Source: Acidithiobacillus sp. HP-2 (GTDB lineage Bacteria > Pseudomonadota > Gammaproteobacteria > Acidithiobacillales > Acidithiobacillaceae). Taken from it: a stretch of DNA of 64,000 nucleotides. A program made the translations under genes and the position numbers. The stretch lies in assembly GCF_015100155.1 (NCBI RefSeq), contig NZ_JACKZA010000006.1, forward strand, positions 1 to 64,000, given 5' to 3'. Of this stretch, positions 563 to 61,553 are shown one piece after another. Numbering within the stretch: the first letter of the stretch is position 1; each line of letters starts with the position of its first letter. The notes beneath the pieces were generated by a model that saw nothing but the letters and a program-made list of their open reading frames with translations, did not search any database and had not been told where the DNA came from.

Positions 563-1879
563 ATGGAGGCGGAGTTGGAAGGCCGTCCCTACACCTTCAT
601 TTTGGAGGATGCCTTCCGCTGGGAGCATTGGGCGGCGCCCAAAACGGCAGATGGCAGGATGGACCACCACAAGGCCTTGTCCGGGGACGACCTCCGGGAT
701 TTTGTGAATATCCGACTGTTTCCATATCTGTCAGGCTTCAAGCGCCGCGCTACTGGCTCCAACACCATCGAGTACAAGATCGGTGAAATCTTCAGTGAAA
801 TCAAAAATAAGATTCAAAGTGGCTACAACCTGCGGGAGATCGTGGAGATCATTGATGGTCTGCGTTTCCGGTCCCAGACGGAGAAGCATGAGCTCTCCCA
901 CCTGTATGAAGCCAAGATCAAGAACATGGGGAATGCCGGTCGTAACGGCGGCGAATATTACACGCCCCGCCCCCTGATTCGGGCGATTGTGCAGGTGGTG
1001 GCGCCCAAAGTCGGCGAGAAGATTTACGACGGCGCGGTGGGCTCGGCGGGCTTTCTCTGTGAGGCCTTCGACTATCTTAAGGCCCAGCCGGGACTGACCA
1101 CCGGCGACATGCAGACGCTGCAGGAGCGTACCTTCTACGGCAAAGAGAAAAAGAGTCTGGCCTACGTCATCGCCATCATGAACATGATTCTACATGGCAT
1201 CGATGCGCCGAACATCGTCCATACCAACACCCTGGCCGAGAATCTCATGGATATCCAGCCGAAAGACCGGGTAGATGTGGTGTTGGCCAATCCGCCCTTC
1301 GGCGGCAAGGAACGCAAGGAGGTTCAGCAGAACTTCCCCATCAAGACCGGCGAGACAGCCTTTTTATTCCTGCAGCACTTTATCCGCATGCTGAAAGCGG
1401 GTGGCCGGGGCGGCGTGGTCATTAAAAACACCTTCCTGAGCAATACGGATAACGCCTCGGTCAGTCTGCGCAAACTGCTACTGGAAGACTGTAACCTGCA
1501 TACCGTCTTGGATCTGCCGGGCGGGACTTTTCAGGGGGCGGGAGTAAAAACCGTGGTGCTGTTCTTTGACAAGGGCGCGCCGACCCGAAAGGTCTGGTAC
1601 TACCAGCTGAACCCCGGACGAAACATGGGGAAGACGAACCCCCTCAATGACAACGATCTGGCGGAGTTTATCGCACTGCAGAAGACCAAGGTCGACTCGC
1701 CGCAGTCATGGTCGGTAGATGTGTCCGGAATCGACACCCGTACCTATGACCTGTCGGTCAAAAATCCCAATGGCGGTGATGAAAAGGTGCTGCGTAGCCC
1801 GGAAGAAATACTGGATGAGATTGCCGCACTGGATGCCGAGAGTGCTGAGGTGCTGGCGGCTATTCGGGGGCTGTTGTGA
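563..1879 (+). CDS. hsdM: Type I restriction-modification methyltransferase HsdM, N-terminally truncated
   Basis: N6-adenine methyltransferase subunit of a type I restriction-modification complex; with HsdS it methylates the recognition sequence. The catalytic core is intact in 438 residues: the SAM-binding motif I variant DGAVGSAGF (about 156-164) and motif IV NPPF (243-246). Close relatives carry some 45-50 further residues before the EAELEG segment that is residue 2-7 here, and this start lies nine bases from the inferred end of an insertion sequence. The N-terminal helical domain is therefore clipped, and no ribosome site is seen before the ATG, so expression and activity are doubtful. 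The stop overlaps the hsdS start by four bases (GTGA). Confidence 0.85.
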   Translation: MEAELEGRPYTFILEDAFRWEHWAAPKTADGRMDHHKALSGDDLRDFVNIRLFPYLSGFKRRATGSNTIEYKIGEIFSEIKNKIQSGYNLREIVEIIDGLRFRSQTEKHELSHLYEAKIKNMGNAGRNGGEYYTPRPLIRAIVQVVAPKVGEKIYDGAVGSAGFLCEAFDYLKAQPGLTTGDMQTLQERTFYGKEKKSLAYVIAIMNMILHGIDAPNIVHTNTLAENLMDIQPKDRVDVVLANPPFGGKERKEVQQNFPIKTGETAFLFLQHFIRMLKAGGRGGVVIKNTFLSNTDNASVSLRKLLLEDCNLHTVLDLPGGTFQGAGVKTVVLFFDKGAPTRKVWYYQLNPGRNMGKTNPLNDNDLAEFIALQKTKVDSPQSWSVDVSGIDTRTYDLSVKNPNGGDEKVLRSPEEILDEIAALDAESAEVLAAIRGLL

Positions 1880-44293: not shown

Positions 44294-44371
<78 letters not shown>

Positions 44372-44383
44372 TAAATCAAAGGG

Positions 44384-45415
44384 TTAGGATGCATCTTCCT
44401 GATTTCTTTTTCTACAATCACCGCCTTTTTCTACAATCCTGCTCAGTGGGGTGATCCGCTCCGCTTCTCTGGCTCTGATATATGCCTCAGTCATATCGCC
44501 GCTGGCATGGCCGGCCAGGGCTTGCGCGTAGTCTCTTCCAGCGACCCGCTTGGCGTCAGTAAGCGCCTTGGCTCGTATGTCATGAAAGTGAATATCCTCC
44601 ACGCCAGATTTGGCCACAATACGTCGCCAGGCACTGTTCCAACCGCTCACACTATAGGGTTGCCCATCTCGTGTGCAGAAGAAGTAGAGCGACCCTACCC
44701 TGCGGCGCAAACTCCTGGAACGTGCAACCACCTCGTCCAATGCATTGGTAATGATGAAGTCCATCTTTTTCCCGGTCTTGCCCTGACTGATAAGTAAAGA
44801 GTCACCGTTGATATCCGAAAATCGAAGCCTCATGATATCGCCACGTCGCATGGCGGTGAGGTAGGCGATATCAATGATGCACTGCCACTGGCTATCTGCA
44901 TGTGACCTGATAAGGTCGAGCTCCTGGTCAGTGATGTAGCGGTCCCGTGGTTTTTCCTTGTTTCGCCTGACACCTTTGGTTGGATTGTGTTCACACCAGC
45001 CCCATCGAATGGCAAAGGAGAAGACCGTTGAAAGAAGGGCCATCTCGCGATTGGCTGCAACAGGTGATGGATGCTGGTCCAGATAAGCGGCGATATCCAT
45101 ACCTCTCACCTCGACGATCTGCATGTGCCCAAACACGGAGCGCAGCCGCGCGGATTGACGGATGTATTCCTTTCTGGTGGACTCTGCGAGCTTGGATAGC
45201 TCCGTACCGATATAGCGATCTATGGCCTGTCCCATCGTGGAGCCGGAGGCATTATGTCCTTCCATCTCGGCCCACTTGGCAACGGCCTCAGGATAATTAT
45301 CTGCGAGCCTGGTCCACTGGCGCTTTCCGGCGACGAGCGTGACGTAATAGTATACCTTGCCTTTCTGGTGCATCCTTGGCGGTAGGTTATGGTGTGACGA
45401 TCTATGCCGTCCCAT
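44384..45415 (-). CDS. Tyrosine recombinase (integrase)
   Basis: Site-specific recombinase of 343 residues, read toward the tRNA. The catalytic set is visible: Arg190 (TAMRRGDIMRL), Lys near 213 (QGKTGKK), His278 and Arg281 (HFHDIR), His303 (LAGHASG) and the nucleophile Tyr312 (TEAYIR). An N-terminal arm-binding segment and a core-binding domain (about 60-145) precede it. The start overlaps the end of the DUF4224 gene by 14 bases, so both are translated from one message. Confidence 0.95.
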   Translation of the reverse strand: MGRHRSSHHNLPPRMHQKGKVYYYVTLVAGKRQWTRLADNYPEAVAKWAEMEGHNASGSTMGQAIDRYIGTELSKLAESTRKEYIRQSARLRSVFGHMQIVEVRGMDIAAYLDQHPSPVAANREMALLSTVFSFAIRWGWCEHNPTKGVRRNKEKPRDRYITDQELDLIRSHADSQWQCIIDIAYLTAMRRGDIMRLRFSDINGDSLLISQGKTGKKMDFIITNALDEVVARSRSLRRRVGSLYFFCTRDGQPYSVSGWNSAWRRIVAKSGVEDIHFHDIRAKALTDAKRVAGRDYAQALAGHASGDMTEAYIRAREAERITPLSRIVEKGGDCRKRNQEDAS

Positions 45416-45641
45416 GTTGTCGTGTCTCCTGCTTCAGAACATCCAGTCTCGGCCCATTACGTCTGGGCATTGCCCCTGATCCAACGAGATGACGTTCGAC
45501 CTCTGCCCAAAGTACCACTGGTCGCCCGGTTGCCGCCACTTCATGCCTGTAACCATGGTCACATAGCCATCTGACCTGCCCAGGCTTGGTCTTCAGTCCT
45601 GTGAGGCTATATAGATCTTCCGGCGTTAGAAAAGTAGCCAT
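45402..45641 (-). CDS. DUF4224 protein next to the integrase
   Basis: A 79-residue protein opening FLTPEDLYSLTGLKTKPGQV then RWLCDHG, the DUF4224 pattern (LTPEEL..LTG....QIRWL). These small proteins resemble MerR/excisionase-type helix-turn-helix domains and often stand just before phage-type integrase genes. A role as recombination directionality factor is likely from position alone. Confidence 0.7.
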   Translation of the reverse strand: MATFLTPEDLYSLTGLKTKPGQVRWLCDHGYRHEVAATGRPVVLWAEVERHLVGSGAMPRRNGPRLDVLKQETRQHGTA

Positions 45642-46427: not shown

Positions 46428-46477
46428 GGCTGCTGGTCTCCATGATGCCGCGAGGGAAGGGCGGCTTCGATGAAGAA

Positions 46478-46540: not shown

Positions 46541-47305
46541 TCACCTCATCGGTCTGCCGCCACTACGCTCCAAGTAGCCTCCCCAGATCTCCACGGAATC
46601 TAAGCGGTTCTCAGGGACTGAAAAAGGAGCGTATACCGGGTCCTGGTTGATGGAGCTAACCCGCAATGATCCGTCCGGGAGCCGGTGAACCATTTTAACC
46701 ATTACTTCAGCGTCTACGCGCAGGACAAAAGTACACAATCGTGGATCTGTCACGCCCGGTCCGGGCGGAACGCGCCGGCGGGTGTCTACAACAATCCAGT
46801 CATTGTCAAAAATGAAGGGGCTCATGCTTTCCCCTCGCACCCGGTACGCCTTGCACGCGTTCAGCACACAACGTCTAGTCACAAAGAAATCAGCGTCGTA
46901 TAGTCTCAACTTCTTTTCTGGTGCATCAGTGACAACTAGCCGATTACCCGCTCCAACTTCCAGTAATACGGCCTCTATGGCGGCATAACCATCCGGCACT
47001 GGTTCCTCGCCTGGATACCACGCACTGACATCCACACTTTCAGTCACACCAGACTTTTCCAACTGGCTGTGAATGCCCTGTCCTCCAAGTGCATCAAGGG
47101 TCTCAGCAGGAACTCCCAGTATATTGGATAACCTGACCAGCTCCTTTCTGGGAACCCCGCGTTCCTCCCAGTGTTGATAGTTCTGTGCATCTTTGAGCTG
47201 GAGAACATCTAGCGCATAGCGGCGCTTGGATAAGCCGCGTTTCTGCCTGTCCGATTCCAGCATGGCAATAGCAATTGTAGATCCTGTAGGTTTTCGGTTT
47301 TTCAT
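46541..47305 (-). CDS. S24-type (CI/LexA-like) phage repressor
   Basis: A 254-residue protein with an N-terminal helix-turn-helix region (about 25-75) and a C-terminal S24 peptidase domain: catalytic Ser160 in RVRGESMSP and Lys204 in EVMVKMVHR, 44 residues apart as expected. Ala119-Gly120 (GAGN) is a candidate self-cleavage site. Such repressors keep the element quiet and cut themselves on RecA activation after DNA damage. It lies between two promoters that share one operator motif. AAGGGGA precedes the ATG. Confidence 0.88.
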   Translation of the reverse strand: MKNRKPTGSTIAIAMLESDRQKRGLSKRRYALDVLQLKDAQNYQHWEERGVPRKELVRLSNILGVPAETLDALGGQGIHSQLEKSGVTESVDVSAWYPGEEPVPDGYAAIEAVLLEVGAGNRLVVTDAPEKKLRLYDADFFVTRRCVLNACKAYRVRGESMSPFIFDNDWIVVDTRRRVPPGPGVTDPRLCTFVLRVDAEVMVKMVHRLPDGSLRVSSINQDPVYAPFSVPENRLDSVEIWGGYLERSGGRPMR

Positions 47306-47340
47306 GCGTTGATTGTTCCCCTTAGCTCACAAGCAGGGAA

Positions 47341-47379
47341 GCACCGCTGTGTTGACAGTGTCACCATTGTGGTTATACT
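47341..47379 (+). promoter_or_regulatory. Rightward promoter P2 with operator, leaderless start
   Basis: TTGACA (47352-47357) and TATACT (47374-47379) are 16 bases apart. The palindrome TCACC-N5-GGTTA (47361-47375) sits in the spacer exactly as in P1, and a weaker copy GCACC-N5-GTTGA (47341-47355) is centred 20 bases upstream. The expected transcription start falls at 47386-47387, on the ATG of the Cro-like gene. Confidence 0.75.
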
Positions 47380-47386
47380 TTGCCTC

Positions 47387-47611
47387 ATGAATGGACTTGA
47401 CCGTGCAGTGTCACATTTTGGCTCCCAGTCATCGCTCGCGCGCACGCTAGGAGTTTGCCCTATGGCAGTTAGCCACTGGCGGCGTCGAGGAGTTCCCCTC
47501 GCCCGCGCCATCGCCATCGAGCGCGCCACCGCCGGCGTTGTCACCCGTGCCGAACTCCGGCCCGACATTTTCGGCCCCTTGGATGAGATCAGAGACCGGG
47601 GAGCCACATGA
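47387..47611 (+). CDS. Cro-like small regulator (YdaS type)
   Basis: A 74-residue protein (MNGLDRAVSHFGSQSSLART) with a helix-turn-helix that fits the YdaS/Cro group: LARTLGVCPMAVSHWRRRGV at about 17-36, followed by RAIAIERATAGVVTRAELRP. It is divergent from the S24 repressor, the classic two-repressor switch arrangement. The ATG falls seven bases after the -10 box of P2, so its message should be leaderless. The frame is open upstream to 47309, but that crosses the promoter. Confidence 0.8.
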   Translation: MNGLDRAVSHFGSQSSLARTLGVCPMAVSHWRRRGVPLARAIAIERATAGVVTRAELRPDIFGPLDEIRDRGAT

Positions 47612-47745
47612 GACACCAATCGACTACTACGACTTCTATGCCAGGCAACGGGGGCACCCGGATTGCGTTTTCAGCCGCGCGATCATTCCTGGCGCCCATT
47701 CGCAGGGCTGAGAAGGCTGGAAGAGACCATGCCAATTCCAAATGA
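47608..47745 (+). CDS. Possible small protein between cro-like gene and replication gene
   Basis: A 45-codon frame begins with ATG overlapping the stop of the Cro-like gene by four bases (ATGA), behind GGGGAG, and ends within the start of the DUF1376-type gene. The product (MRHQSTTTTSMPGNGG, then a basic segment) matches nothing I know. The coupling is the only argument for it. Confidence 0.35.
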   Translation: MRHQSTTTTSMPGNGGTRIAFSAARSFLAPIRRAEKAGRDHANSK

Positions 47746-48730
47746 CGCACAAGAACTGGATTGTTCAGCGCTTCCGCCCCCACCTGTATCAGCCGACATT
47801 GATCTGCGTTCCTATTGTTGGATGAAGCTGGACCTGAGCCGACTCCATTCCAGCGACTTCATCCACCTGGCCAGCAATGAGGAGTTCGGCGCAGCGGTAA
47901 AGCTGTGGACCGAATCCATGCGGCAGGTACCGGCTGGCAGTCTTCCCAACGATGACAGGATCCTGGCTTGCCTCGCTGGATATCGGGGTTCTCTCCGACG
48001 GTGGATGAAAGTCAAAACGATTGCATTGCATGGCTTCTCCCTTTGCTCCGATGGCCGCCTGTACCATCCCGTGCTTGCGGAAATGGTACTCGATGCCTGG
48101 GGTAACAAGACTCAACAGCCGACATCAAGCCCTTCGGACCCGCGCGCCAAGGATCGTGAGCGCCTTCGTCGCTGGCGGGCGGCACAAAGGGCCAAACAGG
48201 AAAGCGCTCAGTCTATCAGAACTGAGGAAGCACACTCTACCCAAGCCGATGAAACGATTGAAACGTCTCAAGGCCGTTTCACGGAAACGTTTCCAGAAAC
48301 GGCTGAAACGTTTCATAGAAAAGAAGGAGAGGGAGAAAAGAGAGAGAGAAGAAACGTTGATAACGTTTCCGAAACGGCGGGTGAAACGTTTCAGGAAACG
48401 CCACCCACAGAGTCCTCTCCACCGCCGACCGCAACCCGCGAAGGCACATTATGCAAGAAACTACGGGCACTTGGTGTTCGTGCAGCCCCTCACATGGTCG
48501 TTGTGCAGGAGATGTGTGCACGCCATTCCGATGAGCACATTCTGGCTGCGGCGGAGATCGCCTTGGAGAAAAAAGGCGGCGGCATCCATGTCGGCTACAT
48601 CTCTGCAATGCTGAAAGATCCTGGGAAATCTTCAGGGAAAGGAGGAAAGAGCCAGCCGGCAGCGGGGCCGCCCAACCGCTCTCTGCTGCCGCCCATCGCC
48701 GTTGCCAAATCTCATTATGTCAGACTGTAG
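47729..48730 (+). CDS. DUF1376-type replication protein with embedded repeats
   Basis: From the ATG at 47729 the protein is 333 residues. The N-terminal part (about 22-125) has the DUF1376/YdaU pattern (SLPNDDRILACLAGY, LHGFSLCSDGRLYHPVL). A charged linker (about 150-235) is built from repeated ETF-type peptides encoded by GAAACG-rich DNA, and a C-terminal helical domain follows. The arrangement resembles lambda O: an initiator carrying its own origin in the middle of its gene, followed by a DnaC/P-type loader. The repeated peptide is probably a by-product of the DNA signal. Confidence 0.7.
   Translation: MPIPNDAQELDCSALPPPPVSADIDLRSYCWMKLDLSRLHSSDFIHLASNEEFGAAVKLWTESMRQVPAGSLPNDDRILACLAGYRGSLRRWMKVKTIALHGFSLCSDGRLYHPVLAEMVLDAWGNKTQQPTSSPSDPRAKDRERLRRWRAAQRAKQESAQSIRTEEAHSTQADETIETSQGRFTETFPETAETFHRKEGEGEKRERRNVDNVSETAGETFQETPPTESSPPPTATREGTLCKKLRALGVRAAPHMVVVQEMCARHSDEHILAAAEIALEKKGGGIHVGYISAMLKDPGKSSGKGGKSQPAAGPPNRSLLPPIAVAKSHYVRL
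48251..48400 (+). repeat. Cluster of GAAACG/CGTTTC repeats, candidate replication origin
   Basis: Within 150 bases GAAACG or its complement starts at 48251, 48260, 48275, 48284, 48288, 48296, 48305, 48309, 48351, 48364, 48371, 48383, 48387 and 48395. Three are palindromic GAAACGTTTC (48284, 48305, 48383). A nearly pure purine tract (about 48315-48355) divides the array. Iterons plus a strand-biased tract inside the initiator gene is the lambda ori layout. Confidence 0.65.
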
Positions 48731-48740
48731 GAGAGCCGCC

Positions 48741-49595
48741 ATGGAAAAGAAGTCCGATATCCACCATCAGCCATCCGTCCCTGCGGGCGATGCTGCCAGG
48801 GATCTCCTTGCCAAATGGGGATTCGACTCTACCAATGAGGCGATCCTGCCCGACCGTCATCCCCAGTACCGCGAGTGCGCGCGCCATGGCCGCTATCCGA
48901 TCTCCATGGTGGATGAGCGGGACGTCATCCGCTACCTGTCACCGGTCTGTCCGGTGTGCGCGGCGGAGCATGCCTCCCGCCGGCTCATGGAGAGCGCGGC
49001 CATCCCAAAGCGCTACCTTGACTGCGGCTTCGACAACTACGTGGTCGAGGTCCCGGGTCAGCAGACGGCCCTCGACGTCTGCCGGGACTACGCAGATCAT
49101 TTCGAAGAGCGCGCCCAAAAGGGATCCTGCCTCATCCTCTGCGGGAATCCTGGCACGGGCAAGAACCACCTGGCGTCTGCCATCGCCCACGTGGTGCTGT
49201 CCAAAGGGTACAGCGTGCTCCAGGTCACGGCCTACGACATCATTGCCCGGATCCGCCAGACCTGGCAGCGGGGAATCGGCAACAGTACGGAGCTGGAGGT
49301 TATCCGTGGGTTTGCGGAAGTGGGTCTGCTCATTATCGACGAGATCGGGAAAACCTTCGGCAGCGATGGTGAGCGGGTGCATCTCTTCGAGGTGATCGAT
49401 CACCGGTACCGCGACCTGAAGCCGACCCTTATCCTGTCCAACGAGAATATGGAGGGCGTGGAGAAATATCTGGGTCCGGCCGCCTTCGATCGGCTGTGTC
49501 AAAATGGCGGCCTGCTGCTCTTTGACTGGCAGAGCCATCGCCGGGGGAGGGGGTGCAAATCCGATACGGCTATCTGTCTGCGGGGTGAATCATGA
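48741..49595 (+). CDS. DnaC-like helicase loader
   Basis: From the ATG at 48741 (AGGAGAG upstream) the product is 284 residues. It has a zinc-finger-like part (YRECARHGRY and CPVCAAEHA, about 40-80) and an AAA+ domain with the DnaC-type Walker A GNPGTGKNHLA, Walker B LLIIDEIG and sensor-like ILSNEN. It would load the host DnaB helicase at the element's origin. The zinc motif plus AAA+ layout matches phage-borne DnaC proteins. The next gene overlaps by four bases. Confidence 0.85.
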   Translation: MEKKSDIHHQPSVPAGDAARDLLAKWGFDSTNEAILPDRHPQYRECARHGRYPISMVDERDVIRYLSPVCPVCAAEHASRRLMESAAIPKRYLDCGFDNYVVEVPGQQTALDVCRDYADHFEERAQKGSCLILCGNPGTGKNHLASAIAHVVLSKGYSVLQVTAYDIIARIRQTWQRGIGNSTELEVIRGFAEVGLLIIDEIGKTFGSDGERVHLFEVIDHRYRDLKPTLILSNENMEGVEKYLGPAAFDRLCQNGGLLLFDWQSHRRGRGCKSDTAICLRGES

Positions 49596-51792: not shown

Positions 51793-52074
51793 ATGGAGAT
51801 AGTGGGCTTCGATTGGGATAGCGGCAACTGGCCGAAGTGCGGAAAGCATGGCGTTTCCCGCCAAGTGATAGAGCGATTGTTTCTCGAAGGAAGGGTGATG
51901 GTTGCTCCCGACCCGAAGCACTCCCTCCCGACAGAAAGTCGGCATATTGCGGTGGGCCGGGTCGATGGCAGGCCAATGTTCGTGGCGTTTGCCATCAGGG
52001 ATGACCTCATTCGCCCGATCAGTGCCCGTTACATGCACGAGAAGGAGATTGCGAATTATGAAGCAGGTACCTAA
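51793..52074 (+). CDS. brnT: BrnT-family toxin
   Basis: A 93-residue ribonuclease toxin of the RelE-like fold: FDWDSGNWPKCGKHGVSRQV at the start is the BrnT pattern (F.WD..K...N..KHGVSF), followed by ESRHIAVGRVDGRPMFVAFA and a C-terminal ISARYMHEKEI. BrnT blocks translation until bound by BrnA. The antitoxin gene begins 17 bases before this stop, so the two are co-translated. Confidence 0.88.
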   Translation: MEIVGFDWDSGNWPKCGKHGVSRQVIERLFLEGRVMVAPDPKHSLPTESRHIAVGRVDGRPMFVAFAIRDDLIRPISARYMHEKEIANYEAGT

Positions 52075-52525: not shown

Positions 52526-53194
52526 ATGTCGAGCAATCCCGATTATCTGGCTGCCCGCCAGGAATGGCTTGAGCGCTACGGCTCCTACATCGCGCAGGCG
52601 AGAAACTGGCGCATCGCTGCCCTGTCGGCTATCGGCATTGCCGCCCTGTTTGGGGCGGGCATGGTGTTTGAGGCAGACCGTGTCCATGTGGTGCCCTATG
52701 TCGTCGAGGTGGACAAACTGGGAAAGGCTGTGGAACTGGCGCAGGCCGTGCGGGCTGGCTCTTTTGCCCAGCCGGTAGTGCAGCACATCGTTTCCCGCTT
52801 CACCTGGCTCGCTTTCACGCGCAGCCCGGACAAGTTTGTGCAGAAGCACTTCATCGATGAATCCTATCATTACATCGCATCGAGCGCGGAATCCTCGCTG
52901 GACGCCTTCTATGCGCAGCACAATCCCTACGCGGCCTATTCCAACAAGACGCAAGGCAACACGGTCACGATCCAGAGCGCCGTTCCCGTTGGGCAGGTAA
53001 CGGGCAAGGGTGGCTCGTACATCGTCGATTTCCTGGTAAAGCGCTATGGCCCGCATGGCGGGGAGGATGGCGAGCAGAACTGGCAAGGCACGGTCACTTA
53101 CGCGACGGTCCCGCCATCGAACAACCCCAATGTCCTGAAAGGCAATCCATTCGGCATCTACATCACGCACTTTGCATTCAGTCCCCAGGTGTAA
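52526..53194 (+). CDS. trbF: Conjugal transfer protein TrbF (VirB8-like)
   Basis: Inner-membrane scaffold of a type IV secretion system. The 222 residues have a short cytoplasmic N-terminus, one membrane segment (about 29-47) and a periplasmic VirB8 fold with VHVVPYVVEVDKLGKAVE after the membrane and FTWLAFTRSPD in the middle. It is the first gene of the conjugation cluster and its ribosome site lies in a hairpin. trbG follows after 12 bases. Confidence 0.82.
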   Translation: MSSNPDYLAARQEWLERYGSYIAQARNWRIAALSAIGIAALFGAGMVFEADRVHVVPYVVEVDKLGKAVELAQAVRAGSFAQPVVQHIVSRFTWLAFTRSPDKFVQKHFIDESYHYIASSAESSLDAFYAQHNPYAAYSNKTQGNTVTIQSAVPVGQVTGKGGSYIVDFLVKRYGPHGGEDGEQNWQGTVTYATVPPSNNPNVLKGNPFGIYITHFAFSPQV

Positions 53195-53206
53195 GGAGAA
53201 GATGAG

Positions 53207-54337
53207 ATGATAAATCGAACATGGCTTTCTTTGGGGCTCGCCGTCCTTCCTGGATTGGCGCTGGCCGGCGTGAATACTGGGCTCCCTGCGGTGAACCCGT
53301 TCAGTTCGCAGCAGGGAAGACCGCCAATACAGCCTGCAGGGGCGAAAACCGGTTCCGCCCATCCGTCCACGACATCATCCGCATCTGGCGGCACCACATC
53401 TGCGGGCCAGAAGGTCCCGGCCATCTCCCCGGAGGCCGCCGAGCGGATAGCGGCGGTGCAGGTGTGGCAACAGTCCATCGCCACGCCGCCCGAGGGCCCA
53501 GAAAGTGCTGCAACCAGAGCGCTGGCACGTCAGTCGCTTACGGCGTCCCAGGCAATGGATGACACTCTTCCGGTAATCAGTGGCGCGAACGGAACCGTCG
53601 ACAGCCTGGCCGGTCGGCCCGTGCTGGTTTGCTCGCCGCTGCACACATGCATCATCGAGCTGCCCGACGGGATCAGGCCCGTGACGACCGTTGGCATCAG
53701 CAAGTCGGAATGGAATGTGCAGCAGGCGCTGGTTGGGAAACAGCCGGAAATCTTCCTGAGCCCGAAATTTACGGGTCTCCACCAAAACATCGTGGTAGCC
53801 GCAACCGACCAGGGCAGGCCCATCAACTATGAAATCCGTCTGGTCAGTGACGCAGTGCACTACATCCCCGCCCTAAAGATCGAGGATAGCGGGGGCGAGG
53901 TCCGTTCCTGGAAAACAGACTTGCCGTCAGCAGGCTCGCAGGCGGCTGCCTTGCAGACGGCAGACAACGCGCCAACGGATCCGTCGACTGCCGACCCTAA
54001 AGGCAATGTACTGCCTTTGCCCAATATCCGTCTCAATCACGTCAATCTTCGCTGGTCCATTCATTGCGGTGGCGGCGGATGGTTCCGTTCCAGCGACTGC
54101 AAGCCGATCCGTCCATTGCGCGTGTATGACGATGGGACCCATACCTTCATCGACATGCCCCAGGGGCTGGCGAGCCACGGAGGCTTTCCCATCCTGCAAG
54201 CCCGCAATGCCAGCGGACACCTGATCGGAGTCAATACCCAGATCCGGGGCAACACCTATGTTGTCGATTCAGTTCCTGCCGAGATCCTGTTACGGCTGGG
54301 TTCTGAGGTGGTCACCATCCAGCAGGAGGAGAGGTAA
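53207..54337 (+). CDS. trbG: Conjugal transfer protein TrbG (VirB9-like), copy 1
   Basis: Outer-membrane-core subunit. A signal peptide (1-20) is followed by a Pro/Ser/Thr linker and a VirB9/CagX-type beta domain: WNVQQALVGKQPEIFLSPKF and GLHQNIVVAATDQGRPINYE in the N-lobe, and RPLRVYDDGTHTFIDMPQGL in the C-lobe. 376 residues. A Cys pair in the C-lobe (HCGGGGWFRSSDC) could form a disulfide and is also seen in the next gene. Confidence 0.8.
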   Translation: MINRTWLSLGLAVLPGLALAGVNTGLPAVNPFSSQQGRPPIQPAGAKTGSAHPSTTSSASGGTTSAGQKVPAISPEAAERIAAVQVWQQSIATPPEGPESAATRALARQSLTASQAMDDTLPVISGANGTVDSLAGRPVLVCSPLHTCIIELPDGIRPVTTVGISKSEWNVQQALVGKQPEIFLSPKFTGLHQNIVVAATDQGRPINYEIRLVSDAVHYIPALKIEDSGGEVRSWKTDLPSAGSQAAALQTADNAPTDPSTADPKGNVLPLPNIRLNHVNLRWSIHCGGGGWFRSSDCKPIRPLRVYDDGTHTFIDMPQGLASHGGFPILQARNASGHLIGVNTQIRGNTYVVDSVPAEILLRLGSEVVTIQQEER

Positions 54338-54338
54338 C

Positions 54339-55322
54339 ATGCGCTACGGGGCAAAAACGATGAAAAAACGGTCTGTATTGGTGATGGCCACGATTGCCAT
54401 GGCAGCAAGTGTGCCCGCTTCTATGGCATCCACGGTGAAGGTGCCAGGAGTTGCCGGACAGTCCGCGCCAATTGCCGAGACGGTGAACACCGCCCAGATT
54501 TTTCGGCACAGTCTGAATATCCACTATGGCGAACCCATCCGGGCGGTGGAGCAACAATCGGTGCGGGCCTTTGCCCTGGGCACGCTCTCGCAGCTCCCCG
54601 TATTCACGCGCCCGGGCGGAGAGGTCATCGTGCCACTGGGGCAAGTCCTGCCGGTGCTTCAGACCGCCCCTGGCAATTTCTCCGTGGTCATTCTGGGGAA
54701 GGGCGTCAAGCCGGTCTCCCTGGTCGGCGCCCCACGCGCCGAGTGGGTCGTGAAGGAGACCGCAGCCGGCAGGCATCCCATTCTGGAAATCATGCCCCGC
54801 TTTGCCGGACTCAAAGGCAGTATCCAGATCGTCGCGACCAGCCCTCATGGCTATCCGTTGACGTACACCGTGGGCCTGGTCAGCGGTACCTCCCGGTTCA
54901 CGCCGGTTCTGTCCTTCTATCGCGTCCCTCACGATCTCCCCCAATCCAGGGATGCGGGTACACGCAACCAGTACAGGCAGGCCACGGTCATCGCCCATGC
55001 TGCGCATGCCAATGCTCCACATGTAAATGCCACACATGCCGATCTCGACTGGAAAATGCAGTGTTTCACGGGCGACTGCAAGCCTGTCCAGCCGATCAGC
55101 GTGGTCAGCGACATCAAGGACAGGATGACCTATATCCGCCTGCCCACAGGGAAACCCCCGATGGTTCTGGTGCGCAACCAGGCTGGCAAATCCTTGCTGG
55201 TGGGCTACCGCATGGAAGGACACACGCTGGCCGTGGGGGCCGTCCCCTACCGTATCGATCTGCTCACGGGCAACTGGAATCACCTGGCCGAAATTCGCCT
55301 CACGAACGAGGCAGGAGCGTAG
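54339..55322 (+). CDS. Second TrbG/VirB9-like protein
   Basis: A 327-residue exported protein (signal peptide about 1-31, cleavage near ASMAS) with the same layout as its neighbour: EWVVKETAAGRHPILEIMPR, FAGLKGSIQIVATSPHGYPL, then MQCFTGDCKPVQPI and RMTYIRLPTG. The shared order and the common Cys pair show that both belong to one family, but similarity is low. The ATG follows GGAGGAGAGG one base after the trbG stop. Two VirB9-type subunits in tandem are unusual. Confidence 0.75.
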   Translation: MRYGAKTMKKRSVLVMATIAMAASVPASMASTVKVPGVAGQSAPIAETVNTAQIFRHSLNIHYGEPIRAVEQQSVRAFALGTLSQLPVFTRPGGEVIVPLGQVLPVLQTAPGNFSVVILGKGVKPVSLVGAPRAEWVVKETAAGRHPILEIMPRFAGLKGSIQIVATSPHGYPLTYTVGLVSGTSRFTPVLSFYRVPHDLPQSRDAGTRNQYRQATVIAHAAHANAPHVNATHADLDWKMQCFTGDCKPVQPISVVSDIKDRMTYIRLPTGKPPMVLVRNQAGKSLLVGYRMEGHTLAVGAVPYRIDLLTGNWNHLAEIRLTNEAGA

Positions 55323-55324
55323 CC

Positions 55325-56683
55325 ATGAAAAGCGGCAAAGAATTTTTCTCCGATTTGCTCCAGAAAAAGAAAGGGCTGCTCCCGGCGGGACAACAGCCCG
55401 CCGTGGATAGCCGCAAAGGCCCTGGCAGGCAACCAGGCCCACAAGCCAGTCAGCCCGGGATCGAGGTCAAGCCGGACAGGGACCGGATGGCGACGCGCAT
55501 CAAACGGACGCCACTCTATATCGCAGCTGCGGTGGTCGGACTGGGCGCCTATGGCGGCTATGAGTATCTGCAAAATCACCCGATATTCGGGCACACCAGG
55601 CCGCAGGTGCAGGCCAAAACCATCCAGCCAGCGAGCGGGACTGGCGCACCGGTCGCCCCTGCGCACCGGAAGCAGGTCCACCAGCCCACTACGCCTGGAG
55701 GGGCGTCGGACGCGTCGGCAACTGCGGCCACGAACAGTGATGCTGAGCAGTCTCATCCAGCGAAGGCTCCAGCGTCCACAGCGCCCACAAAGAATCCCTA
55801 CGCAACGCAGGACGCCGCCTTCGCGTCCGCCCTGGGTACGGGAAGCGTGGGGAGCGGAGCCGGTGAGGGCCTTGCTTGGAAAACGCCGGAATCAACGCCG
55901 TCTGCGAAGGCTCCGACAGTGCTCCCTACGGCCCTGCCGGACGCGGAGCAGATGGCGGCGAAGAAAACAAAGAAAAAGACCCCGCCGCCCCTGGTGACCC
56001 GGGAGATGAGCCCCTACGAGATTCTTTCCGGATCGGTCATTCCCGCCGTTTTGCAGACGGGCATCAAGAGCTATCTGCCGGGAGAGATCACGGCGGTGGT
56101 CAGCCAGAACGTCTATTCGTCCGTGAATGGGGCAACGCTCCTGATCCCTGCCGGCGCCAAATTGGTGGGCACCTATGACACACAGACGGCCCTGGGCATC
56201 AACCGGCTGGCCGTTGCCTGGACGCGCATCGAGTTTCCGAACGGTACCACCATGAACCTGCCGGGATACGAAGGGGCAGGCGGTGCTGGATACGCGGGCT
56301 TCGCCGGGGAGGTCAATGACCACACCTGGCTGATCTTCAGGAATGCGTTATTGATGTCGATCGTGGATGCCGGGATGGCGATTGCCTCTCCGTCCACGTC
56401 GACCAGTGTGACAGGCCAGATGTCCGGGAATGTGGCACTTCAGGACAGCGAGCAAGCACTGGCACAGACCTTTGGGGAAGCCGAATCCCAGCTGCTGGAA
56501 AAGTACATCGATATCGCACCCACGATTACCATTCCCACCGGCTATCTGTTCTCGGTGGTGGTGGCGCATGACATGATCTTCCCCGGCCCCTACGACCCGG
56601 CCATGCAGACGGGGTCGGCCATGATCGACCCGGCGCTTGGACCAAATCTCAATCCCTATGGGTTGCACCCTGCCAAGGGGTAA
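55325..56683 (+). CDS. trbI: Conjugal transfer protein TrbI (VirB10-like)
   Basis: Energy-sensing channel subunit spanning both membranes. From the ATG at 55325 (behind AGGAG) it is 452 residues: cytoplasmic N-terminus, membrane segment at about 64-82 (LYIAAAVVGLGAYGGY), a Pro/Ala/Thr-rich periplasmic linker, and the C-terminal beta-barrel domain starting MSPYEILSGSVIPAVLQTGI with INRLAVAWTRIEFPNG and GEVNDHTWLIFRNALLM. The frame is open far upstream, but those codons belong to the second trbG gene. Confidence 0.9.
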   Translation: MKSGKEFFSDLLQKKKGLLPAGQQPAVDSRKGPGRQPGPQASQPGIEVKPDRDRMATRIKRTPLYIAAAVVGLGAYGGYEYLQNHPIFGHTRPQVQAKTIQPASGTGAPVAPAHRKQVHQPTTPGGASDASATAATNSDAEQSHPAKAPASTAPTKNPYATQDAAFASALGTGSVGSGAGEGLAWKTPESTPSAKAPTVLPTALPDAEQMAAKKTKKKTPPPLVTREMSPYEILSGSVIPAVLQTGIKSYLPGEITAVVSQNVYSSVNGATLLIPAGAKLVGTYDTQTALGINRLAVAWTRIEFPNGTTMNLPGYEGAGGAGYAGFAGEVNDHTWLIFRNALLMSIVDAGMAIASPSTSTSVTGQMSGNVALQDSEQALAQTFGEAESQLLEKYIDIAPTITIPTGYLFSVVVAHDMIFPGPYDPAMQTGSAMIDPALGPNLNPYGLHPAKG

Positions 56684-56693
56684 GGAGCGAAAA

Positions 56694-56996
56694 ATGCGCG
56701 GAAGCATCATCATCCGGACAGAGCACGATTGCGCAGGGCTTTCGCCGGCAAGGCGAACAGCGATTGTGACACAGAAAGTGCGTTCCCTGTCCGATGAGGG
56801 CCTGCAGGATCTGGCCCGGCGGCGGGAGAAACAGCACCCGGGGCGCCACCTTCGCCCCATGTCGATCACCCTGCCTGCCGACGTGCTGGAGCGACTGCAA
56901 GGCTTTCAGGGAAGCAGATGGAGCGTCTCCGCGATGATCGATCGGATTCTGGAATCGGAAGATATCCGCCCAGCATCGTCACGGAGTGCGCGATGA
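56694..56996 (+). CDS. Small RHH-like protein within the conjugation cluster
   Basis: From the ATG at 56694 (AAGGAG upstream) it has 100 residues. The C-terminal part (RPMSITLPADVLERLQGFQG then WSVSAMIDRILESE) fits a ribbon-helix-helix domain: strand, helix, turn, helix. The basic middle (ARRREKQHPGRHLRPMS) would aid DNA binding. It could be an operon regulator or relaxosome helper. The next gene overlaps by four bases. Confidence 0.6.
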   Translation: MRGSIIIRTEHDCAGLSPARRTAIVTQKVRSLSDEGLQDLARRREKQHPGRHLRPMSITLPADVLERLQGFQGSRWSVSAMIDRILESEDIRPASSRSAR

Positions 56997-57610
56997 TTTT
57001 AGTCTCCCAGATCAGTGCGGAATGCGCCCCCATGGTCGCACCCTCGACGATGGCCGCCATTGTGCGGGTGGAGTCCGGGGGCAACCCGTTGGCGATGTGG
57101 AACAACAGTACGCGGAGCATGGTCATTCCCGGCAGTCGGGCTCAGGCCATCCGGTATTTGCGGCACGCCATGGCCGCAGGCCAGCGGGTCGACGTGGGGC
57201 TGGCCCAGGTGGATACCGGGAACTTCGCCGCCTTCGGGCTCACTCCCAGGACAGCCTTCAATGCCTGCGGTAACCTTCGGGCAGGCAGCGAGATCCTGCA
57301 CATGGATTGGCAACAGGCGCTGGCCAGCGGCTACCGGGGCCAACAAGCGCTCTACCACGCCTTTGAAGCGTACAACTCTGGGCGGCTCTGGGGGGATGCC
57401 CAATACGCCAACCGGATACTGGGTGCCGCTGGAGCATTCGCGTCTGCCGGCCGCAAGCCTGCCGACTACGGCGGACTGCGCACCGTCTCCCAAGTCAACA
57501 AGGCACTACCGACCAATCCCTTTCCTCAATTCCGGTGGCTGGCAAAGCCTGCTCAGGCGGTAACGCCTGCACCCTCAGGTGACTCCCACTCCTGGCCGGT
57601 TCTCCCATAA
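56993..57610 (+). CDS. VirB1/TrbN-type lytic transglycosylase
   Basis: A 205-residue peptidoglycan-cutting enzyme that opens the wall for the secretion channel. MAAIVRVESGGNPLAMWNN carries the catalytic Glu27 in the usual V..ESG..P context; VGLAQVDTGNFAAFGL and YHAFEAYNSGR are the conserved later parts of the SLT fold. No signal peptide is evident in the 17 residues before it. The ATG overlaps the RHH gene stop. Confidence 0.85.
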   Translation: MILVSQISAECAPMVAPSTMAAIVRVESGGNPLAMWNNSTRSMVIPGSRAQAIRYLRHAMAAGQRVDVGLAQVDTGNFAAFGLTPRTAFNACGNLRAGSEILHMDWQQALASGYRGQQALYHAFEAYNSGRLWGDAQYANRILGAAGAFASAGRKPADYGGLRTVSQVNKALPTNPFPQFRWLAKPAQAVTPAPSGDSHSWPVLP

Positions 57611-57620
57611 GGACTTCGAG

Positions 57621-60035
57621 ATGGTAAACAAGATTCATGCTCCCAACTCCACCGTCTCCGACTACAAGGTCCAGCGCCTCGCCCGGGGCGGCAGGCTCAA
57701 GACGACGCTCGTCGGCGTTGCGGCGGGCGTTCTCGGTTACACGCTAGGCATATCCTATGTGGCCAGGGACGTGTTTCCCGGCTACCGGTGGACCGACGAT
57801 TTCATCCAGAAGACGCATGCCTACATCGCATTGCCCTACGGCTGGCGTCTGTATGACCCCCTGCCGTTCCTGCGGCCGATGATCCTGAACATCCACTATC
57901 CAGTGATTCATCAGGCGTTCTATGACGCAGGTCTGCCGGCCATGGTGCTGGGCATGCTCACTGCGGGGATACTCGGGAAAAAGCACAAGGACGCGCAAAA
58001 AGCCGTCCTGGACAATCCTGTGCATGGTTCAGCGCATTGGGCGGGTAAAAGTGACGCGATCCGCGCGGCGCTCCTGCCTTCTCCCCCGCCAAGGACGGGG
58101 ATGGATCGTCTACATACCTGGCTTGGGCTCAAGGGAGATTCCGACTTGGCCCGATGGAAAGACCGGCAGGAAAAGCGGAAAAAGGAGGCCGCAGAGTGGC
58201 GGAAGAAGAGGGCGGAGAGCGAGAAGAAACGCCTGTCAGAGATCCCGAAGCCGTCAATTTTTGACAGGTTTGACTCTCCGCATGTCTGTTATGTTGGGGC
58301 CTTTGTCGAGAACGGGGTGGCCACTCCACTCCAGCACACCGGGGCAGAGCACATCCTGGTCTTTGCCCCGACCCGATCCGGCAAGGGTGTGGGCCTGGTC
58401 CTGCCCACACTGCTGGACGGCTGGATGGACTCGGTTGTCGTGCATGACATCAAGGGGGAAAACTTCAACCTGACGGCGGGATACCGCAAGGCCATGGGCC
58501 ACCATATCCTGAAGTTTTCACCAGGCTCGGTATCCGAAGAGGGTTGCCACTTCAACCCACTGGATGCGGTGCGTGTCGGAACCCAGTATGAAGTCAAGGA
58601 CGTGATGAACATTGCCACGATGATTGTGGATCCGGATGGCAAGGGTCTGAACGATCACTGGCAGAAAACCGGTTTTGCCCTGCTCACGTCCATCATTCTG
58701 CATGTACTCTACGCCATGCCGGACAAGACCCTGCGGGGCGTTGCCGCCTATCTCAACGATCCCACGCTGGAAAGCGTGGACGTAGCCTTTGAGCGCATGA
58801 TGCAGACGGAGCATGACCCGGATGAGCAATATGGCTGGCGGGACGGCAACGGCCAGTTCACCAAAGTGCATCCAGTCATCGCGCAATCCGCGCGGGAGAT
58901 GCTGAACAAGGCCGATAATGAAAAATCGGGCGTCATTTCGACCATGATGAGCTTCCTGTCCCTTTACCGGGATCCCATCGTCGCGAAGTGGACCGAGTAT
59001 TCGGACTTTCGCATTGCCGACCTTCAGGACGCCGAACAACCCGTCTCTCTGTACCTGGTCACCAGTCCGGAAGACAAGAACCGGCTCAAGCCCCTCATTC
59101 GCCTGGTGCTCAACCAGATCGCCTCCCAGTTCACCGCAGAAGAACGCCTGGAAGCGAAAGACGGGCGAATCGTTGCCAGGGGAAAGCATCGGCTGCTCCT
59201 GCTGCTCGACGAATTCCCGAGCCTGGGCAAACTCGATGTGTTCCTGGACAGCATCGCCTTCCTCGCAGGCTACAACGTCAAGCTGTATCTCATCACCCAG
59301 GACATCGCCCAGCTGGAAGATGAAGGCCATGGCTACGGCAAGGCCGGGGCCAGGACCGTCATCGGCAATTGCCACATCCGGGCGGCCTACGCGCCCAACC
59401 AGGTCGAGACGGCCAGGTGGATCTCCGACATGCTGGGTACCCGTACCGTGACCATGGAAAACGACAACCAGAGTTTTGACGGCTCGCTGTTCGGTCAGAA
59501 CAAGGGCTATTCGACGAGCCTCAGCTACCAGTCCCGCCCCCTGCTGACGGCGGATGAGGTCATGACCTTGCGGGGACCGGAAAAGGAAGGTGCCAATATC
59601 CAGACCCCGGGCGATATGCTGGTATTCGCGGCGGGCTTTCATCCCATCTATGGACAGCAGCTGCTCTATTTCAAGAACCCGGAATGGCTTGATCGGGCAT
59701 CCATTCGGTGGCCGGAGAAGAGCGATTCCATCCCCGGAGCCAGGAAAGACTACAAGGCTATTCTGGGCGAGTCGGGTGGAACGCTACCCATCCCCCATAT
59801 TGAGAAAAAACCGGAAGAGCAGGAGTCTGTCGAGGAAGTAAGCGAGGCTGAAAGGGCGGCATTGGCTGCGGCGGCTGGCGATCTGGACGCCGTGGCAGGA
59901 GAGTGCAAGCCCTTCGCTGGGTGCAAGCCCCTCGCGGGTCGCAAACCCACGGGGGAGGGAAAATATGACACGTCCGCGCGGGACGCGGAGAGAAGCGTTA
60001 TAGGGGGGTTGATGGGGGATGACGGCGACGGATGA
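57621..60035 (+). CDS. traG: TraG/VirD4-type coupling ATPase
   Basis: Delivers the relaxase-DNA complex to the secretion channel. From the ATG at 57621 (AAGGA upstream) it is 804 residues: membrane segments near 27-46 and about 104-119, Walker A variant APTRSGKGVGLVLPTLL (249-265) and Walker B LLLLLDEFPSLGKL with the family's ITQDIAQLE afterwards. The last 45 residues are unusual, with repeats CKPFAG-CKPLAG-RKPTGEG encoded by near-repeated DNA. It closes the visible conjugation cluster. Confidence 0.92.
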   Translation: MVNKIHAPNSTVSDYKVQRLARGGRLKTTLVGVAAGVLGYTLGISYVARDVFPGYRWTDDFIQKTHAYIALPYGWRLYDPLPFLRPMILNIHYPVIHQAFYDAGLPAMVLGMLTAGILGKKHKDAQKAVLDNPVHGSAHWAGKSDAIRAALLPSPPPRTGMDRLHTWLGLKGDSDLARWKDRQEKRKKEAAEWRKKRAESEKKRLSEIPKPSIFDRFDSPHVCYVGAFVENGVATPLQHTGAEHILVFAPTRSGKGVGLVLPTLLDGWMDSVVVHDIKGENFNLTAGYRKAMGHHILKFSPGSVSEEGCHFNPLDAVRVGTQYEVKDVMNIATMIVDPDGKGLNDHWQKTGFALLTSIILHVLYAMPDKTLRGVAAYLNDPTLESVDVAFERMMQTEHDPDEQYGWRDGNGQFTKVHPVIAQSAREMLNKADNEKSGVISTMMSFLSLYRDPIVAKWTEYSDFRIADLQDAEQPVSLYLVTSPEDKNRLKPLIRLVLNQIASQFTAEERLEAKDGRIVARGKHRLLLLLDEFPSLGKLDVFLDSIAFLAGYNVKLYLITQDIAQLEDEGHGYGKAGARTVIGNCHIRAAYAPNQVETARWISDMLGTRTVTMENDNQSFDGSLFGQNKGYSTSLSYQSRPLLTADEVMTLRGPEKEGANIQTPGDMLVFAAGFHPIYGQQLLYFKNPEWLDRASIRWPEKSDSIPGARKDYKAILGESGGTLPIPHIEKKPEEQESVEEVSEAERAALAAAAGDLDAVAGECKPFAGCKPLAGRKPTGEGKYDTSARDAERSVIGGLMGDDGDG

Positions 60036-60716: not shown

Positions 60717-61553
60717 ATGCCGCGTAAACCCATTGTACTCAGTATCGCCATAGGCCTTGCCGGATTAGGGGTTTTATCCCTCTCTACACCGGCGTCTGCT
60801 GGGCCGTTTGATCTCAGTGTCATGCTGGGCGACCTCGGGATCAATCTCGGTAACACGGGCTTGCCCCAGCAATATGGCTATTTTGAGCCGCCCTCAGCGT
60901 ATACCGGCTATTACAGTCAGCCACTCTATGCGCAGTACATGATGTGGTACTACTACCCGCAGACATACTACCAGTATTATCCGGCACCGCCCCCGCCTCT
61001 GCCGGCAGGAGCGCCTCCGCCTCCGCCTCCACCGGCAGGAGCGCCACCGCCACCACCACCTGGCACTTATTTTAATTATCTGGGGGTGCAACCACCGCCA
61101 CCGGCTCCGCCTGGCGCACCACAACCGCCTCCGCCTGGGCCTCCTCCCGGTGGACCGGGCTTTGGGCCTCCGGGGAGGCCGCAACCAGGTGGGCCGGGGT
61201 TCGGTCCACCACCAGGTCCACCACCCGGAAGACCAGGCCCTGGAGGACCTCAATTTGGTCCGAGAGGGGGGCCACCACAGGGTGGACCTGGAGGGCCTGG
61301 ACCTCACCAAAGACCTATGGGTGGGCCAGGTTTCGGCCCACAACCAGGTCCTGACCATGGAGGGCCTCGGTTCCAGCCAGGGCCAGCAGGAGGACCCCCG
61401 CAAGGGCCTCAATCTGGCCCGAGAGGAGGGCCGCCACAAGGGGGGCCTGGAGGACCTGGATCTCAACAGCCACCCCACCAAGGACCTACGGGTGGACCGC
61501 CTCCACCGGGTGGGCCAGGCGGACCGCCCCCTGGAGGGCCTGGCGCACCTTAA
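60717..61553 (+). CDS. Exported Pro/Gly-rich low-complexity protein A
   Basis: A 278-residue precursor with a signal peptide (cleavage expected after TPASA at about 28). Residues 29-95 are Tyr/Gln-rich (YYSQPLYAQYMMWYYYP), and the rest is a collagen-like run of PPPPPAGAPPP, GGPGFGPPG and GGPQFGP units. No cysteine or membrane anchor. Length of the repeat tract could vary between strains. AGAGGA lies before the ATG. Function unknown; an extended periplasmic or surface polymer is a guess. Confidence 0.7.
   Translation: MPRKPIVLSIAIGLAGLGVLSLSTPASAGPFDLSVMLGDLGINLGNTGLPQQYGYFEPPSAYTGYYSQPLYAQYMMWYYYPQTYYQYYPAPPPPLPAGAPPPPPPPAGAPPPPPPGTYFNYLGVQPPPPAPPGAPQPPPPGPPPGGPGFGPPGRPQPGGPGFGPPPGPPPGRPGPGGPQFGPRGGPPQGGPGGPGPHQRPMGGPGFGPQPGPDHGGPRFQPGPAGGPPQGPQSGPRGGPPQGGPGGPGSQQPPHQGPTGGPPPPGGPGGPPPGGPGAP

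Follow-up and report, generated by a model that had tools for sequence, protein, structure and literature searches.

A candidate iteron-type replication origin within the DUF1376-family initiator gene of an apparent Acidithiobacillus ICE

The window, a 64,000-nucleotide stretch of DNA from Acidithiobacillus sp. HP-2, carries an initiator gene of the DUF1376 family at 47729..48730 on the plus strand, with a likely ATG start at 47729 as read from the sequence. Residue numbers of its protein, P0001, are counted from an in-frame TTG at 47717; with this numbering, the protein is divided into an N-terminal domain (~17-133), a helical arm extending to ~168, a repeat region (~179-228) and a C-terminal domain (~241-300). 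The match to DUF1376 (PF07120) is borderline, scoring 30.2 bits where the cut-off is 30.1, and the protein also matches phrog_22470, annotated 'replication protein' (6.3e-34), and phrog_3992, annotated 'primosomal protein' (2e-11). A Pfam scan of the initiator at E<=0.1 returned DUF1376 only, and because there is no Pfam match to lambda O, the protein is not filed as a lambda O protein. A PF07120 search across the genome of the window found nothing. In the 20 phage records listed of 36 matched, identity to the initiator is 46.9-53.2% over about one third of the protein. The next gene, at 48741..49595 (+), encodes a DnaC-like helicase loader (phrog_50, 6.5e-64), so that the placement of the repeat array, in the original prediction, inside a DUF1376-type gene just before a DnaC-type loader holds. 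The loader carries an AAA+ domain according to IstB_IS21 (PF01695; 2.7e-15, 56.9 bits, cut-off 24.1), and its match to the NCBIfam model PRK07952 DnaC (1.5e-43) scores 149 bits, below the model cut-off of 357. A search of plasmid DNA matched a single record, at an ATP-binding protein gene in Ideonella.

The model predicted for the N-terminal domain of the initiator has a pLDDT of 92.9 (41 sequences), and the succession of helices and strands in it is compatible with a winged helix. In VIA-align comparisons, the top rows are initiators, with 4pql_A at a Z of 4.9 (rmsd 4.3, 86 aligned) and all Z values below 5; the match to 4xgc_B is likewise weak (Z 4.3, rmsd 4.1, 80 aligned). The likeness of the modelled domain to the N-terminal domains of plasmid RepA-type initiators and to ORC2 is thus suggestive, no more. 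Foldseek returned 0 matches to the N-domain model at E<=0.001. The full-length model of the initiator is poor (pLDDT 56), and fold searches with it gave nothing useful. No convincing relative was found among solved structures, the 12 matches all having E>=0.12 and being taken as chance.

Upstream of the initiator gene, a tRNA-Pro(ggg) gene at 44294..44370 (+) is the likely integration site. It is followed by a tyrosine integrase gene at 44384..45415 (-; PF00589, 1.5e-20), an excisionase (DUF4224) gene at 45402..45641 (-; PF13986, 7.9e-14; phrog_4764, 8e-12), a CI/S24-type repressor gene at 46541..47305 (-; PF00717, 5.6e-11; phrog_4, 1.9e-19) and a Cro/YdaS-type regulator gene, with an uncertain ORF start, at 47309..47611 (+; PF15943, 2.8e-19; P22_Cro, 7.5e-15). 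Downstream, the conjugation genes at 52526..60035 (+) encode VirB8, two CagX/TrbG-type ORFs, TrbI, an SLT transglycosylase and a TraG/D-type coupling protein. Two of the features by which an ICE is recognized were found, namely an integrase adjoining its tRNA target and conjugation machinery with a coupling protein. The array and the initiator are therefore carried on an apparent tRNA-Pro-integrated conjugative element of iron-oxidising Acidithiobacillus, and since CI, Cro and the integrase lie upstream and the conjugation genes downstream, this apparent ICE bears a phage-type regulation and replication module. The relaxase search, made with the TraI_2 family, gave a 27-bit partial match at C48:167958, far off on the contig. 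No second att copy was found on contig C48; 45- and 47-bp copies of the tRNA-Pro 3' end sit on other contigs, C15 and C30, and the relative G004 has a 47-bp copy of the tRNA 3' end at a distance of 101 kb from the tRNA gene. It is noted that a BrnT-type toxin gene is present at window positions 51793-52074, between the replication and conjugation modules, and that tandem GC-rich repeats of 24-30 bp occupy 60985-61138, downstream of the coupling-protein gene.

Fourteen hexamers, nine GAAACG and five CGTTTC, lie at 48251-48400, in the middle of the initiator gene. The left block (48251..48314, +) holds GAAACG at 48251, 48260, 48284, 48296 and 48305 and CGTTTC at 48275, 48288 and 48309; the right block (48351..48400, +) holds GAAACG at 48351, 48371, 48383 and 48395 and CGTTTC at 48364 and 48387. 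Three overlapping hexamer pairs, at 48284, 48305 and 48383, form the palindrome GAAACGTTTC. Two of these palindromes, 48284-48293 and 48305-48314, are in the left block at a distance of 21 bp, and the third, 48383-48392, is in the right block. Between the blocks is a purine tract of 38 nt at 48317..48354 (+), a candidate unwinding element. The recount thus agrees with the 14 units, three of them palindromic, that had been described in 150 bases around a purine tract. Elsewhere in the window, the densest hexamer cluster has 6 per 150 bases. The 10-mer palindrome occurs four times in the genome of 3,200,419 bases, with three of these copies in the array, compared to 11 genome occurrences of the same pattern reversed. 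The sole copy outside the array is at G000:C45:168777-168786. In seven relatives 48260-48269 is also a palindrome, which is broken in the window gene (GAAACGTCTC).

Apart from the purine tract, the window has no pure purine or pyrimidine run of >=25, and none of 40 order-1 Markov simulations of a 64-kb sequence produced a run of 38. The least stable 60-mer of the DUF1376 gene starts at 48303. The stability of the candidate unwinding element is not extreme, as 2.3% of the 60-mers of the window are less stable than this one, including one at 46477 in the same module.

The hexamers lie in all three reading frames, nine in frame 0, four in frame 1 and one in frame 2, and the nine in frame 0 encode ET (8) or RF (1). 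The description of the encoded peptide as a repeated ETF pattern therefore applies to most of the sites and fails for the remainder. When the same 50 residues were recoded in 100,000 trials with random synonymous codons drawn from the rest of the gene and dnaC, none of the recodings reached 14 sites (mean 1.44, maximum 7). The pS and pN values were compared over all pairs of seven genes (window, L012, L013, L014, L010, L020 and L005). The 23 codons wholly within hexamers have a pS of 0.020 and a pN of 0.026, whereas the 27 other codons of the repeat region have a pS of 0.301 and a pN of 0.215; the pS/pN values are 0.283/0.042 for the N-domain and 0.295/0.049 for the C-domain. Between the sites, variation is as unconstrained as at synonymous positions in the rest of the gene; within the hexamers it is not.

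A count of 14-15 sites is kept in the window and seven relatives (L012, L013, L014, L010, L020, L005 and L006), and the order and orientation of the sites are kept in the window and six of these seven, the right block of L006 being partly rearranged. The first site of the right block is in frame 1 in the window, L012, L013 and L014, and in frame 0 in L010, L020 and L005; this shift is caused by indels in the purine tract, which alter the peptide and spare the site. In eight genes, 67 of 69 ET dipeptides in the repeat region are spelled GAAACG, compared to 0 of 6 outside the region. It is well supported that selection acts on the DNA of 48251-48400 and that a DNA function dictates the peptide there, as originally predicted: synonymous sites in the repeats are conserved among relatives, as the check proposed at that time asked, and relatives that retain the ETF peptide but not the GAAACG bases, named as the refuting case, were not seen. 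Repetition driven by the peptide is rejected on the basis of the synonymous conservation, the recoding trials and the ET codon usage.

The layout is kept with another motif, GTAACG, in the more distant L007, L008, L009b and L022, and two of these genes are chimeric. The DNA of L007 is 42-65% identical to that of L010 over the first seven 100-bp windows and then 84-100% identical through dnaC and beyond, the matching part past the switch being 3.6 kb at 91%. Similarly, L008 and L006 are 42-67% identical and then 96-99% to the end of the L008 contig, early in dnaC. Because the upstream stretches of L008 and L006 also match, at 86-95%, the exchanged piece in this pair is bounded on both sides. 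At the protein level, L007 and L013 have 51% identity in the N-domain and 96% in the C-domain, and L008 and L006 have 47% and 96%; the N-domains of L007 and L008 are 74% identical to each other and come with the same motif. The switch point is just behind the repeats, and the N half that moved carries GTAACG in place of GAAACG repeats. From the contrast in identity between the two domains and the change of motif in both chimeras, the N-domain and the motif have therefore been exchanged as one block. Such an exchange against a conserved C half would be expected were the repeats recognized by the N-domain and the loader contacted by the C-domain.

The regulators behave differently from the N-domain. 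The GAAACG array is kept in L010, although the window CI matches there at 34%, and in L006, although the window CI finds no match at E<=1e-3; the window Cro matches L010 at 57% and L006 at 36%, over parts. As judged from these matches, CI and Cro do not travel with the motif. Motif does not simply follow N-domain identity, either. The N-domain of L022 is 63% identical to that of the window gene, yet its repeats are GTAACG, and L019b, with an N-domain 48% identical, has 13 GAAACG/CGTTTC in 200 bases, without palindromes. In L022 (G004:C1 near 1640306), the GTAACG-type N half and repeats are fused to a different and much longer C-terminal part, and the open frame is 677 residues in the stretch examined. 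A second, shortened DUF1376 copy without repeats is located just upstream of the repeat-bearing gene in L009 (2555-3019) and L019 (1792-2151, minus strand).

The DUF1376 domain, which has received little study, was found in at least 590 IMG/VR stretches. A family set of 99 genes, chosen and not random, was assembled from the best 80 of these at least 590 relatives by N-domain similarity and 19 others from phages, plasmids and Acidithiobacillus, and was cut to 49 at <=90% N-domain identity. Left out of the set were BgManors32 L069 (cut by the record end), Achromobacter L070, Shewanella L071, Paracoccus L072, Acidovorax L078, the PF07120 class loci L054-L062, the shortened copies L009a, L019a and L026, and the near-duplicates L005, L010, L013, L014 and L020. 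In the repeat-pair test, which covered 47 of the 49 genes after L134 and L153 (<850 nt) were dropped, the strongest purine tract, and not the repeats, fixed the position, and 190 flanking bases were scored. An excess of repeats in the flanks at p<=0.01 was found in 32 of 47 genes, the other 15 having no significant flank repeats; some flanks may include parts of tandem purine units. The in-gene controls reached the same level in 1 of 47 genes for the N-coding part and 1 of 47 for the C-coding part. The purine tract itself was significant at p<=0.01 in 27 of 47, and tract and flank together in 19 of 47. The first tract-centred test, based on the maximum count alone, was significant at p<=0.01 in 21 of 49 genes. 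A cruder whole-gene test, comparing the largest hexamer cluster with codon shuffles, was passed by all 7 correctly placed Acidithiobacillus genes, by 4 of 16 phage or plasmid genes and by none of the 5 distant PF07120 loci that were correctly placed; L056, L057, L058, L061 and L019b, set on the wrong strand or frame, were not counted.

The motifs seen by eye in different lineages are GTGACA/CGTCAC, GGGAC-GTCCC, TTCCGCCGGAA, GTAACG and GAAACG. N-domain identity correlates poorly with the similarity of the repeats (Spearman 0.23, Mantel p 0.001, 37 of 49 representatives), and less than it does with ordinary coding k-mers (0.35). A family-wide code is not claimed because of this result and because many genes failed the cruder test; for the first of these reasons, the claim of co-inheritance rests on the two chimeras. 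A tandem (GGGACA)n of ~4 to 9 units, encoding GQGQ or GTGT peptides and likely variable in length, is found mid-gene in the DUF1376 genes L063, L065, L067, L075 and L139.

The Rac prophage of E. coli K-12 has the gene order racR-ydaS-ydaT-ydaU-ydaV, in which ydaU is annotated as DUF1376 and ydaV, a putative ATP-binding protein by annotation, occupies the place of the loader. It shares with the Acidithiobacillus module both this gene order and the presence of mid-gene repeats in the DUF1376 gene, but the motif differs, being TGTTCAAACA in place of GAAACG. In ydaU (NC_000913.3 1421119-1421976; L168 220-1077), three exact TGTTCAAACA sites, on either strand, start at 1421511, 1421544 and 1421567, within 66 bp in the middle of the gene, and the stretch that follows them is GATACAGATAAAGATC. 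No exact TGTTCAAACA was found elsewhere in the two loci read. Repeat-pair windows over the mid-gene part gave p=0.003, and another window (601-790), outside the putative origin, gave p=0.007; the synonymous-recoding test of ydaU with two mismatches allowed was not significant (546/5000). Rac carries an active origin, oriJ, according to the accessible part of PMC3945230. No placement of oriJ in ydaU was found in the accessible parts of PMC11014345, PMC3945230 and PMC5700373, and the accessible text on YdaU and replication in open-licence PMC articles, outside of which many journals lie, contains nothing about an origin. We predict that oriJ is located inside ydaU, with the ydaU repeats as the candidate site. 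Because the layout of ydaU is similar, a laboratory test would be possible in E. coli K-12 with ydaU and ydaV.

As described in the accessible parts of PMC7466680 and PMC6022878, lambda O/ori-lambda and the origins of Stx phages are organized with iterons and an unwinding tract midway through the initiator gene, the gene for a helicase-loading protein comes next, and transcription is from pR. Other open-licence PMC articles retrieved on origins within initiator genes concern SPP1, a phage satellite, plasmids and unrelated subjects. The Acidithiobacillus module is like lambda in having repeated sites between the N- and C-coding parts of the initiator gene and a loader gene directly downstream, so that the earlier comparison with lambda ori, as sharing the layout but not the motif, was correct. 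The layout is that known from lambda, from which the present module departs in sequence family, in motif, in having sites on two sides, in its purine tract and in its ICE setting. The initiator is of a different family, DUF1376, with no Pfam match to lambda O; the sites are 14 hexamers, with palindromes to the left and right of the tract, compared to 4 or 6 iterons beside the tract in lambda and Stx phages; a purine tract takes the place of the plain AT-rich tract of lambda; and the loader is of the DnaC type on an apparent ICE. Origin specificity was reportedly exchanged together with the N-terminal part of O among lambdoid phages (work attributed to Furth and Yates, 1978).

From the layout, the initiator family, the modular exchange and the parallel with lambda, we infer an origin function for the array. 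It is very probable, in our assessment of the whole account, that 48251-48400 is an iteron-type origin that is recognized by the N-domain of the initiator and has the purine tract as its unwinding element. An integrated, probably conjugative element would thereby have its origin inside the very gene that encodes its initiator. With a predicted winged-helix-like fold, the DUF1376 N-domain would bind GAAACG singly and, as dimers, the GAAACGTTTC palindromes; the two left-block palindromes, spaced by 21 bp or two turns, may serve as such dimer sites. Binding on both sides would strain the purine tract so that the duplex opens there, and the C-domain of the initiator would bring the adjacent DnaC-type loader and host DnaB to the exposed strand. 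Theta replication would then begin after excision, under the control of the CI/Cro switch.

Selection on the sites would be equally expected if they served transcriptional autoregulation or partition, being read by the DUF1376 protein, CI/Cro or ParB, and were not an origin. Palindromic sites within a gene beside a CI/Cro pair are compatible with this possibility, and the contig encodes a ParB-domain protein farther on (L027:899-2152). However, in many relatives the sites flank a purine tract at the junction of the N- and C-domains, and in the two chimeras the motif changes with the initiator N-domain. For CI and Cro as the readers, it is also unfavorable that L010 and L006 keep the GAAACG array with diverged or unmatched regulators. 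We consider autoregulation or partition in place of an origin unlikely; autoregulation by the DUF1376 protein itself may coexist with an origin.

If the repeats had no role in replication and arose by neutral expansion, or marked a recombination hot spot in the short linking sequence at the domain junction, this could account for mosaic breakpoints just after the repeats and for tandem purine units such as (GGGACA)n in some relatives. A process of this kind would not be expected to conserve the hexamers base for base while the intervening bases change freely, nor to keep the order and orientation of the sites in the window and, among the seven close relatives, in six, and is regarded as very improbable. 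The probability is lower still, close to nil, for a selected ET/ETF linker whose coding is repetitive by chance: nine of the 14 sites do read ET or RF in the main frame, but the synonymous conservation of the hexamers, the 0/100,000 recodings and the persistence of sites in three frames through frame changes argue against it, and the adjoining residues evolve fast (pN 0.215).

Beyond the window, the origin reading can be extended to the family in a single joint proposal, which we hold with moderate confidence. DUF1376 would be a large family of initiators with their own built-in origins, each with lineage-specific, often palindromic iterons and a purine tract at the domain junction; the N-domain and iterons would form a cassette that swaps specificity among phages, prophages and conjugative elements; and oriJ of Rac would lie inside ydaU, with a group of Acidithiobacillus ICEs replicating by a phage-type system. 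If true, DUF1376, a domain of unknown function, would gain a function as an initiator with a built-in origin. A rule for spotting these origins by visual inspection would follow, as would a collection of natural initiator/iteron pairs from which the recognition code could be deduced, and it is suggested that some ICEs have borrowed a phage replication module. In the accessible text of open-licence PMC articles on DUF1376, including PMC5795418, nothing about replication was found, many journals being outside this collection.

The replication of some ICEs outside the chromosome is described, in the accessible parts of PMC4489591, PMC3542172 and PMC4595007, for SXT/R391 and ICEBs1. Genome G014 carries the same replication module as the window, with a DNA identity of 93.5% across 2.65 kb; a coupling-protein gene is 120 kb away from it. 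To our knowledge, SXT/R391 and ICEBs1 use other replication systems, not the lambda-like initiator/loader kind. We take G014 to be A. ferrooxidans ATCC 23270 and its element to be ICEAfe2; on this assumption, ICEAfe2 differs from the element of the window in having a distant integrase (27% over part) and mostly different neighbours. ICEAfe2 is described in the accessible part of PMC4226512 as a 176-kb putative ICE of A. ferrooxidans ATCC 23270. An integrase-like remnant with three stops is also seen in G014 (G014:C1:2314699-2314947), beside an intact tRNA-Pro, and is perhaps the trace of a lost element.
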